DNA from: Gallionella sp.
GTDB taxonomy: Bacteria; Pseudomonadota; Gammaproteobacteria; Burkholderiales; Gallionellaceae
Assembly (NCBI GenBank): GCA_028710565.1
Contig: JAQTTV010000018.1
Location: forward strand, 1 to 64,000
Length of the DNA stretch: 64,000 nucleotides
Reading direction: 5' to 3'
Below, piece by piece: positions 44,319-58,280 of this stretch. Positions within the stretch are counted from its first letter, which is position 1; each line of letters starts with the position of its first letter. The notes under the pieces are model-generated. The model searched no databases, was not told the DNA's origin, and saw nothing but the letters and a program-made list of their open reading frames with translations. The position numbers and the translations under genes were made by a program.

Positions 44319-47162
44319 ATGGCAATGGGAACAATTAACGTAGCGCAATTTGCAGCTGAACTGGGTATGCCAGTTGCTTTGCTGCTCGAACAACTACAAT
44401 CGGCTGGCGTTACAAAGCAGCGCGATGTAGATGTTATTTCTGAATCGGATAAAGCGCAGTTGCTGACGCATTTGCGTCAAGCGCATGGTACTGATGCAGC
44501 CGCTAAAAAGGTGACGTTGGCGCGTCGTGAAACCAGTGAAATTAAGAAATCTGATAGCACAGGGAGACCACGCACCATCCAAGTGGAGGTGCGTAAGCGC
44601 CGCGTGGTTGCGCCTGAAGTGAATGCGCAACCTCATCAAGCCGTCGCCCGCTCAGTTGTGTCGACCTCTTCTGTGTTGGATGCACGCCAATTGGCGATAC
44701 GTGAGCAAGAAGCACGTTTACAAACAGAATTGGCGGAACGCCAAGCTGCAGAGCTGCAAGCACGTAAGTTGCGGAATAAAGGTAAAGTTGGTGATGCAGC
44801 TGAAGTCGTAGAAGTCGTCGTTGCCCCAGTGGTAGAGCCTGTCGTCATGGAAGAGGTTGTGCCTGTTGTCGTGGTCAAATCTACCGAGATTTATGAAGTG
44901 AAACCTCCCATCGTTAAGCCCGTGACACCGTCTATCAATCCGACGGTAGCAGTGCCTGCTGTCGCAAATAAATTAGTGGTTGATTCTGCGCCATCTAACG
45001 CCGCACCAACGCCTATGATAGGTGCACCCGTGCTGCGTCGTGTTGCACGCCCTTCTTTTAAACCTGCCCCACCACCGCCTCCACCCGTCGTTGAGCCTGT
45101 TGTTGTGGTCGCTGAAGTGCCTAAAGCGAGCAAAGAAGGTACTTTGCACAAAAGCACGACGGCTCCTAAGCCTGGTGATAAAGTTGTACAAGCCAAAAAG
45201 CCTGCAAAAACAGCTGACAAGCAAGTTGCCAAACGTGATGAGCCGAGTGGCCATAAACGACCTGTAGGTAAAACGGATAACAAACCCACTGGCAAAGCAG
45301 GTGCATGGGCGAATCCTGTGCGCGGCGGTAAACGCAATGATAAGCATCACGGCCGACCTGCTCCCGCAGCGGCGGGGGAATCCTTTGTTCAGCCAACTGA
45401 AGCCATTGTGCATGAGGTTTCTGTACCTGAAACCATTGTGGTGGCCGAATTAGCCCAAAAAATGGCGGTGAAAGCCGCAGAAATCATCAAAGTATTGATG
45501 AAAATGGGTTTGATGGTGACCATTAACCAAGTATTGGATCAAGATACGGCCATGATTGTGGTAGAGGAAATGGGTCATATTGCCAAGGCAGCTAAGTTAG
45601 ATGATCCCGATGCCTATCTGATGGACAACGAAGAGCATCATGATGCTGAGTTGTTACCACGCGCCCCTGTCGTTACAGTAATGGGCCACGTCGATCACGG
45701 TAAAACATCCTTGTTGGATTACATTCGTCGTACCCGTGTAGCTTCTGGCGAAGCGGGTGGCATTACCCAGCACATTGGTGCTTATCACGTGGATACGCCA
45801 CGCGGCATGATTACTTTCTTGGATACGCCTGGTCACGAAGCGTTTACCGCGATGCGTGCACGTGGTGCGAAGGCTACGGATATTGTGATTTTGGTGGTCG
45901 CCGCAGATGACGGCGTGATGCCTACCACAAGAGAAGCGATACACCATGCCAAAGCTGCGGGTGTGGCGATCGTGGTGGCGATTACCAAAATCGACAAAGC
46001 GGATGCCAATATTGAACGCGTCAAACAAGAACTGAGTGTGGAAGGCATCCTGTCAGAAGATTGGGGTGGCGACGTCATGTTCGGTGAGGTTTCGTCTAAA
46101 ACGGGCGCAGGCGTTGATAAATTACTGGAATCTGTCTTGTTGCAAGCCGAAGTCTTGGAATTAAAAGCCCCTCGTGAAACCCATGCCAAAGGCTTGGTGG
46201 TTGAGGCACGTTTGGATAAAGGTAAGGGCGCGGTAGCAACGGTGTTGATTCAATCTGGCACGATGCGTCGTGGTGACGCCGTTTTGGTCGGTTCAGTGTT
46301 CGGACGGGTTCGTGCGATGTTGGACGAAAACGGCAAGTCGATTCACGAAGCAGGTCCGTCTATTCCCGTCGAAATTCACGGGCTGTCAGATGTCCCTACC
46401 GCAGGTGAAGAGTTGATGGTGTTGGCGGATGAAAAACGGGCGCGCGAAATTGCCTTGTTCCGTCAAGGCAAATACCGTGGCGTGAAGTTGGCAAAACAAC
46501 AAGCGGCCAAGCTGGAAAATATGTTCGAGCAAATGGCTGAAGGCGAAGTGCGGACTCTGTCGTTAATCGTCAAAACCGACGTACAAGGTTCTTCCGAAGC
46601 GATTGCCCAGACCCTACATAAACTATCGACAGATGAAGTAAAAGTGAATTTGATTCACGGCGGTGTGGGGCCGATTTCCGAATCCGATGTCAATTTGGCA
46701 TTGGCTTCCAAAGCCATCATCATCGGCTTTAACGTGCGTGCAGATGCAACCGCGCGTAAATTGGCTGAAACCATGGGTGTGGATATACGCTACTACAACG
46801 TGATTTACGGCATGATGGACGAAATCAAAGCGGCGTTGTCAGGCATGTTGGCACCAGAAAAACGTGAAAGCATCATCGGTCTGGTTGAAGTGCGTCAAGT
46901 CTTTACCGTGTCCAAAATTGGGACAATTGCAGGTTGTTATGTACTGGAAGGTCTGATTAGACGTGGCTCGAAAGTACGTGTATTGCGCAATAATTTAGTG
47001 ATACACGACGGCGAATTAGATTCCTTGAAACGCTTCAAAGATGATGCCAAAGAAGTGAAACACAACTTCGAGTGCGGTTTGTCACTGAAGGGATACAACG
47101 ATTTGGTGGTGGGCGATAAGCTCGAAGCTTACGAAATTGTTGAAGTGGCGCGGTCACTGTAA
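44319..47162 (+). CDS. infB: translation initiation factor IF-2
   Basis: [61 protein letters not shown]. Confidence 0.98.
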
Positions 47163-47542
47163 TGAGCAACTACGACAGAACAGACCGTGTCGGACAACAG
47201 ATGCAGCGAGAAATCGCAGAACTGGTGCGGTTGCAAATCAATGATCCACGGGTAAAGCTGGTTACGATCACGGGGGTAGAAGTCGCGCGGGATTACTCCC
47301 ATGCTAAGATTTTTTTCACCCGCTTAGATGGTAAGCACGATGAAGCCCTCAAGGGTTTAGAACATGCCAGTGGTTTTTTGCGTAGCCAGCTGTCACGCAG
47401 CCTCAAGTTGCGCATCATGCCGCAGTTGCATTTTGTCTATGACTCGTCTGTCGAGAATGGTAGTTACTTGTCGCAGTTGATCGATAAAGCGGTTGCCAGC
47501 GATAAACTATCAGCAGAGAAAGCAGAACCTTCAGCCGAGTAA
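47162..47542 (+). CDS. rbfA: ribosome-binding factor A
   Basis: DRVGQQMQREIAELVRLQINDPRVKLVTITGVEVARDYSHAKIFF. Confidence 0.97.
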   Translation: MSNYDRTDRVGQQMQREIAELVRLQINDPRVKLVTITGVEVARDYSHAKIFFTRLDGKHDEALKGLEHASGFLRSQLSRSLKLRIMPQLHFVYDSSVENGSYLSQLIDKAVASDKLSAEKAEPSAE

Positions 47543-47549
47543 ATTATCT

Positions 47550-47726
47550 GGTTCTATGTGATTTACAGTGAGTGGAACCTAGTTATACCCCACTCCCATC
47601 CTAAGAAGGGACTATCACCCTCTCCCCTTCAAGGGGAGAGTTGGAGAGTTGGAGAGGGGATGGGGTGGATTCCGCATTTGAAGGCTCACTTGTGCCACGA
47701 TGACCCACTATGATTCACATAGAGCC
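47550..47726. mobile_element. 177-bp MITE-like element with ~21-bp imperfect TIRs and internal REP-like palindrome
   Basis: Left ggttctatgtgatttacagtg; right cactatgattcacatagagcc (revcomp ggctctatgtgaatcatagtg; 17/21 matches); shares ends and interior with 63196..63721. Confidence 0.8.
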
Positions 47727-47744
47727 ATTATTCTGTAGTCGCTA

Positions 47745-47826: not shown

Positions 47827-48750
47827 ATGGCGCGTACTTTTCGCCCGTTCGACGGCGTGTTGTTACTCGACAAGCCGCTAGAACTCAGCTCCAACACCGC
47901 ATTACAAAAAGCCCGCCGACTGTTTCAAGCTGAAAAAGCAGGTCACACAGGCACGCTTGATCCGCTTGCCACGGGCTTGCTACCTGTTTGTTTTGGCGAA
48001 GCCACCAAGTTTTCCACCGCCTTACTTGAAGCCGATAAAACCTATCGCGCCACCGTGCGTCTGGGACAAACCACCGCCACGGGCGATGCTGAAGGTGAAG
48101 TGTTGCAACATCGCCCCACAGCCCATTTACAACTAGCCGACATCCATGCCGCACTGGCAGCATTTCGCGGCGCGATTCAGCAATTGCCGCCCATGTATAG
48201 CGCGCTCAAACACCAAGGCAAACCGCTGTACGAATACATTCGCAATGGCGAAACCATAGAACGCGCTTTGCGCGACGTGGTGATCCACGAGTTGATTTTG
48301 CATGACTTTGATGGCGAGCAACTCGACATCAGCGTGCGATGCAGCAAAGGCACCTACATCCGCACTTTGGGCGAAGATATCGGCGAAGCACTGGGCTGTG
48401 GCGGGCATTTGACCAAACTACGCCGCACCGCCATCGCCCATTTTGATTTAGCCCACGGCTACACGTTGGCACAACTCGCCGACATGAGCGAAACCGCACG
48501 CGAAATCTGCGTGTTGCCCGTCGATAGTCTAATGCCAGCAATGCCCAAGCTGCACGTGGATGACGTACAAATCCGCCGCTTGGCACAAGGTCAACGCTTA
48601 GGTTTAGACACAGGACTCCCCGACGGCAAAATCGCCTTGTATGGCGCGCAAGGCTTTATCGGGGTAGGCGACTTATTAGGTAGAAGGCTCGCGCCAGAAC
48701 GGCTAATTGCTAGTGTGGCTAAACGGGCAGCGGAGTCTCCTCAGGAATAG
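47827..48750 (+). CDS. truB: tRNA pseudouridine(55) synthase
   Basis: DGVLLLDKPLELSSNTALQKARRLFQAEKAGHTGTLDPLATGLLPVCFGEATKFS. Confidence 0.97.
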   Translation: MARTFRPFDGVLLLDKPLELSSNTALQKARRLFQAEKAGHTGTLDPLATGLLPVCFGEATKFSTALLEADKTYRATVRLGQTTATGDAEGEVLQHRPTAHLQLADIHAALAAFRGAIQQLPPMYSALKHQGKPLYEYIRNGETIERALRDVVIHELILHDFDGEQLDISVRCSKGTYIRTLGEDIGEALGCGGHLTKLRRTAIAHFDLAHGYTLAQLADMSETAREICVLPVDSLMPAMPKLHVDDVQIRRLAQGQRLGLDTGLPDGKIALYGAQGFIGVGDLLGRRLAPERLIASVAKRAAESPQE

Positions 48751-58110: not shown

Positions 58111-58138
58111 CAATCAGGCGTAATTTGTAGATACGGCT

Positions 58139-58239
58139 CCTTCCCCCTAGCAGGGGGAAGGCTGGGATGGGGGTTGAAAGTTTGCATACATGCGACGATT
58201 TCTACCCCCACCCTAACCCTCCCCCTGCTAGGGGGAGGG
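58139..58239. repeat. pair of inverted REP-like palindromes (REPIN-like) between cas3 and cas5
   Basis: ccttccccctagcagggggaaggctgggatggggg ... cccccaccctaaccctccccctgctagggggaggg. Confidence 0.8.
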
Positions 58240-58280
58240 AATATGACCGCATGGAACGCAATGAATTTAAAAAGGAAAAT

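Follow-up and report, generated by a model that had tools for sequence, protein, structure and literature searches.

The insertion between rbfA and truB

The window, a 64,000-nucleotide stretch of a Gallionella contig, contains a 177-bp element without an open reading frame (ORF) at positions 47550..47726 of the plus strand. It is flanked by genes that we take to be rbfA (upstream, 47162..47542, plus strand) and truB (downstream, 47827..48750, plus strand), names that an earlier note on this DNA also used. As an insertion the element is complete, and its 23-bp ends (GGYTCTATGTGA...) are imperfect inverted repeats; it starts with GGTTCTATGTGATTTACAGTG and finishes with the reverse complement of GGCTCTATGTGAATCATAGTGGG. 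The left terminal inverted repeat, GGTTCTATGTGATTTACAGTGAG, spans 47550..47572 on the plus strand, and the right, which reads GGCTCTATGTGAATCATAGTGGG on the minus strand, spans 47704..47726. The rbfA stop codon (47540-47542) lies directly before the left target-duplication copy, ATTATCT, which is short of one T (47543..47549); the right copy, ATTATTCT, occupies 47727..47734. A GGAATACA...TGTATTCC stem-loop, to which the pattern scanner gave no terminator score, is located between the element and the truB start (47827), and the earlier note had placed the element correctly between rbfA and this structure.

The core of the 177-bp copy consists of one palindrome with its tail and the remnant of a second palindrome. 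The central palindrome, CTCTCCCCTTCAAGGGGAGAG, forms a REP-like hairpin at 47620..47640 and is followed by a G-rich REP-like tail, TTGGAGAGTTGGAGAGGGGATGGGG, at 47641..47665 (plus strand). The second-hairpin remnant (47677..47688, plus strand) is fused to the right end via a 12-bp deletion. The hairpin in the element is stable, with a fold z of -2.9.

Such a hairpin in a 3' untranslated position could suggest a conserved part of the rbfA-truB region, either a terminator or an RNA element. That explanation is refuted by an empty site and retains next to no probability. In the genome of a sister species, G023, with 98% identity in rbfA, ATTATTCTGTAGTCG comes after the rbfA stop (the site as a whole reads TAA-ATTATTCTG) and the element is absent; at the same bases the window has ATTATCT, the 177 bp and then ATTATTCTGTAGTCG. 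The downstream stem-loop is present in the G023 empty site, and a search of Rfam gave no relevant family matching the element. All 29 other genus members that are readable behind rbfA lack the element there; in the 28 besides G023, 0-69 bp separate the two genes, or rbfA is followed by an unrelated sequence, with truB not found as its neighbour. The 8-bp target duplication ATTATTCT is single in G023. The left copy in the window has lost one T, which explains why the repeat had been noted as imperfect.

A relative of the element that bears a DUF559 gene is located at 63196..63722 (plus strand) and has an empty counterpart in G023. It shares with the 177-bp element the left end, the right end and the CTTCAAGGGG palindrome, all of them noticed before; the right ends by themselves align across 42 bp at 93% (E 5e-11). 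Its DUF559 ORF runs from an ATG at 63274 to 63699 on the plus strand (PF04480, E 4e-35; the mechanically called ORF begins at a GTG, 63214), and the module's left and right hairpins lie at 63230..63250 and 63654..63674. The DUF559 frame reads through the right palindrome into a repeat-encoded PHPHPNPPLEGEG tail. By appearance, this relative sits between putative cas4-like and cas1-like genes (62324-62944 and 63766 onward).

One supposed link between the two elements did not survive alignment. The internal gaaggctca of the 177-bp copy had been read as shared with the ORF start, ATGAAGGCTCA, and a derivation of the copy from that start was rejected when the alignment gave no homology. Compared with copy C56_19184, which reads CCCTTGAAGG(GGAGGGATATTG)CTCACTTGTG, the bracketed 12 bp are deleted in the 177-bp copy and also in C39_70637 and C36_23792. 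The GAAGGCTCA of the 177-bp copy is thus the joint of this deletion, and its likeness to the ORF start is coincidental.

Copies, empty sites and target duplications

A 201-bp query gave 37 matches in the whole genome, and the 63.2-kb element used as a query also matched many times. At least 29 related loci are present, of which 20 retain both ends and nine only one, and the copies range from about 80 to 877 bp. A pattern built on the ends matched 42 times, and the reversed control pattern 0 times. The outcome that would have spoken against a MITE-like, multi-copy element at exactly 47550-47726, namely that no other copies exist, is therefore absent. The simplest copies (94-104 bp) consist of the two ends flanking a single palindrome, CCCTCCCCTTCAAGGGGAGGG or a close variant, without a gene. 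In the DUF559 copies, the palindrome occurs twice, facing inward, with G-rich tails (TTGGGGTGGGGATGGGG) and the gene in between; six copies carry a full or nearly full DUF559. Local expansion is seen in the copy at G000 C39:70637-70867, where a (CCCCCA)n run and three CACTATGATT repeats lie close to the right end.

The flanks of the 20 two-ended copies are duplicated at a width of 8 bp. Flank identity at this width is 0.71, whereas shuffled pairs give 0.38 (z 8.5; none of 10,000 shuffles reached the observed value), and z is only 1.1-2.9 at widths 5-7 and 9-10. These 8-bp flanks are 81% AT. For nine copies, the joined flanks are continuous in G023, with an overlap of exactly 8 in four, of 6-9 in another four and unclear in one. 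One copy, in which the DUF559 gene is internally deleted, is common to the window genome and G023, so the family was active both before and after the two split. Many of the 8-bp duplications have 1-2 mismatches, and most insertions are thus old.

ISL3-type ends and the candidate transposase

Ends of an ISL3-family insertion sequence, carrying the same kind of terminal repeats, are found at five contig ends of the window genome. At the ends of C2, C24 and C36 lies the left terminus, GGCTCTATGTGATTTGTAGTGGG, with an ISL3-like amino-terminal reading frame after it; at those of C55 and C59 lies the right terminus, GGCTCTATGTGAAATACAGTGGG, with an ISL3-like carboxy-terminal frame before it. The outer 8-mers match between C2 and C55 (AATTCACT) and between C36 and C59 (AATCATTT); paired on these 8-mers, the contig ends represent two insertions with perfect 8-bp duplications and have the appearance of an insertion sequence collapsed in assembly. 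These frames are similar to the two termini, amino and carboxy, of the ISL3 transposase in G049, where a full-length but degenerate relative with the same ends matches DDE_Tnp_ISL3 at E 1e-53. The assembled contigs of the window genome contain no ISL3 transposase gene, and we infer the body of the insertion sequence from the collapsed contig ends. ISL3 genes in G004 and G005 were rejected as autonomous partners, as their flanks lack these ends.

ISL3 elements generally make 8-bp duplications. The 177-bp element is short, has terminal inverted repeats and lacks a transposase gene; its relatives occupy multiple unrelated sites, with target-site duplications and empty sites; and its own genome provides ISL3 ends with 8-bp duplications as the matching partner. 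The terminal repeats of the two are similar, not identical, and the internal DNA is unrelated. We consider it highly probable (about 0.92) that the sequence is an ISL3-type non-autonomous DNA transposon (MITE) moved by a separately encoded ISL3-family transposase. An insertion sequence elsewhere, with the same GGYTCTATGTGA... ends, would encode the DDE transposase, which would recognise both MITE ends, move the element and place it in AT-rich DNA, duplicating 8 bp of the target; the action of this enzyme on the genome's own copies is likely. In some copies, the REP-like core holds the DUF559 nuclease gene between two palindromes, probably as cargo in ISL3-driven movement, and the 177-bp copy has only remnants of such palindrome units.

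A different explanation is that DUF559 itself acts like a transposase on the element as a whole, the 177-bp copy being a non-autonomous derivative. The six copies with a full or nearly full gene are compatible with this, as is the purifying selection on the gene during its spread. Most differences among the four intact copies are silent, with a pooled pN/pS of 0.09 (0.15 if the decayed C65 copy is included), the values being pairwise counts and not independent events. However, DUF559 is Vsr/PD-(D/E)XK-like and not a known transposase, the DUF559 genes at C62, C2 and C29:32175 lack ISL3-type ends, gaaggctca is no trace of the ORF, and ISL3 insertion sequences in the genome share these ends and the length of the duplication. 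This explanation is accordingly very improbable. The earlier note had proposed a relation between non-autonomous and ORF-bearing copies; this is only half right. The 177-bp copy is indeed non-autonomous, but the DUF559 copies are probably non-autonomous too and are not supported as its partners: the protein is Vsr-like, ISL3 matches the ends and the 8-bp duplication, DUF559 sits as cargo inside the central palindrome and gene-less copies exist.

The 177-bp element is of a known kind, an ISL3-type MITE, with an unusual core. A 187-nt MITE of Microcystis aeruginosa, with GGCTCTTCG ends and 8-nt repeats, has been ascribed to ISL3 (PMC11448079). The two are alike in size, in imperfect ends beginning GGCTCT, in their 8-nt duplications and in sharing their genome with ISL3 insertion sequences whose ends match. 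They differ in the end sequence past GGCTCT, and a REP-like palindrome core and, in some copies, a nuclease gene set the present family apart. To the known ISL3-type MITEs, the 177-bp element adds a family for which empty sites are documented.

ISL3-type ends also occur in other species of the genus, around quite different structured DNA of ~200-400 bp (CTGGTTACTTTCTTTTGCGTCGCCAAAAGAAAGTAACC...; L138-L144, L146 and L148), with a perfect 8-bp duplication, AATAAAAT, at L138. At L136 (2935-4242), an IS30-like transposase gene lies within an ISL3-type MITE with the 8-bp duplication ATAAGGAC. Since a short version of 193 bp (L135, 2311-2503) has the same ends without the gene, the IS30-family transposase is read as nested in the MITE.

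DUF559 and its framing palindromes

The strong purifying selection on DUF559 indicates that the protein mattered as copies multiplied, and because selection kept the gene functional during spread, the gene most likely serves either the palindrome unit or the host in some way. In this genome, the DUF559 genes at C29:32175, C62 and C2, which are not part of the MITE, likewise lie between inverted palindromes, with a distinct variant for each subtype; the gene at C41:16404, also located outside the MITE, lacks such framing. Across the genus, inverted palindromes frame DUF559 in 20 of 32 loci (pair score at least 20), and such a pair frames none of the control loci (0/28 for rbfA, 0/7 for Y1_Tnp and 0/17 for ISL3). 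Among wider DUF559 loci, 22 of 93 exceed the 99th percentile of mismatched pairs, again with a hairpin and a G-rich tail. Palindrome similarity tracks DUF559 protein similarity (Mantel r 0.40, 0 of 2000 permutations), and palindrome number correlates better with the number of DUF559 genes (rho 0.55; hand-compiled counts, matches of at least about 60 bits) than with Y1_Tnp (0.24), although shared descent and base composition, which are still included, can inflate both kinds of correlation.

It may be that the palindromes and DUF559 form a separate mobile unit inside the MITE, complementary to ISL3-driven movement. The nuclease would cut or process palindromic sites and spread REP-like pairs in a RAYT-like or homing-like manner, and entry of the module into the MITE's central palindrome would have left a complete hairpin on each side. 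The framing, the tracking and the count correlation are in its favour, as are REPIN-like pairs without a gene, which are dispersed through the genome and laid out like REPINs even though a search of the window genome with Y1_Tnp (PF01797) gave no match and thus detected no RAYT. However, insertion polymorphism of solitary units is limited to one REP difference beside a DUF559 gene (L085 versus L306), and the Mantel and count correlations carry the inflation noted above. We regard the separate unit as a serious but tentative possibility, somewhat short of even odds. Because each palindrome reads alike on both strands, the two copies are also direct repeats, through which a clean loss of the module is possible; the MITE may have gained the module or lost it, with neither direction favoured.

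The comparison with REPINs and RAYTs (PMC3116915, PMC3733652) applies to the module and not to the whole 177 bp. In both, short tailed palindromes form inverted pairs that are scattered over intergenic sites, and palindromes frame a single gene. The palindromes here differ in having G-rich tails, with no GTAG tag seen, and the framed gene is DUF559, the Y1 tyrosine transposase gene being undetected in the window genome; a RAYT was rejected as the palindrome mover there for lack of a PF01797 match. The EDxHD (Vsr-like) homing endonuclease I-Bth0305I (PMC3943268; PDB 3r3p), also a self-spreading gene, has weak profile similarity to DUF559 (E 0.03). Unlike that system, the DUF559 loci here contain no intron, and DUF559 is a putative nuclease.

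Among the papers searched, none linked DUF559 with transposable elements, or REP with Vsr, and the association of DUF559 with framing palindromes, which recurs in many bacteria, appears to be undescribed. DUF559 may have a RAYT-like or homing role, and a role in protection or repair, with selection acting near the repeats, would also fit the observations. Perhaps, though we would wager slightly against it, DUF559 Vsr-like nucleases mobilise widespread REPIN-like pairs of hairpin and G-rich tail by nuclease or homing action, as RAYTs do GTAG REPs, with such MITEs as carriers and their palindromic core as a landing site. The pairing of DUF559, a family of unknown function, with REPIN-like palindromes is the part worth following, with mobilisation by DUF559 as its hypothesis, and may account for how abundant G-rich-tailed palindromes spread in genomes without RAYTs.

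Other repeats were observed alongside these. A solitary REPIN-like pair at 58137-58241 of the window (CCTTCCCCCTAGCAGGGGGAAGG-tail ... tail-CCCTCCCCCTGCTAGGGGGAGGG) belongs to a family of about 60 dispersed copies; Rfam miRNA matches at this position were dismissed as chance. The same palindrome pair occurs inside a different element with GAATGGCACTTACTTAAGC ends (L051, L052, L057 and L179). Another MITE-like element of ~300 bp, with CATAGGTATCTACACAACTTT ends (L184, L182, C32:6003-6828, C43:15232-15633 and C19:32854-33253), is inserted at the middle of the CCTTCAAGG palindrome, with a 9-bp duplication (CCTTCAAGG).
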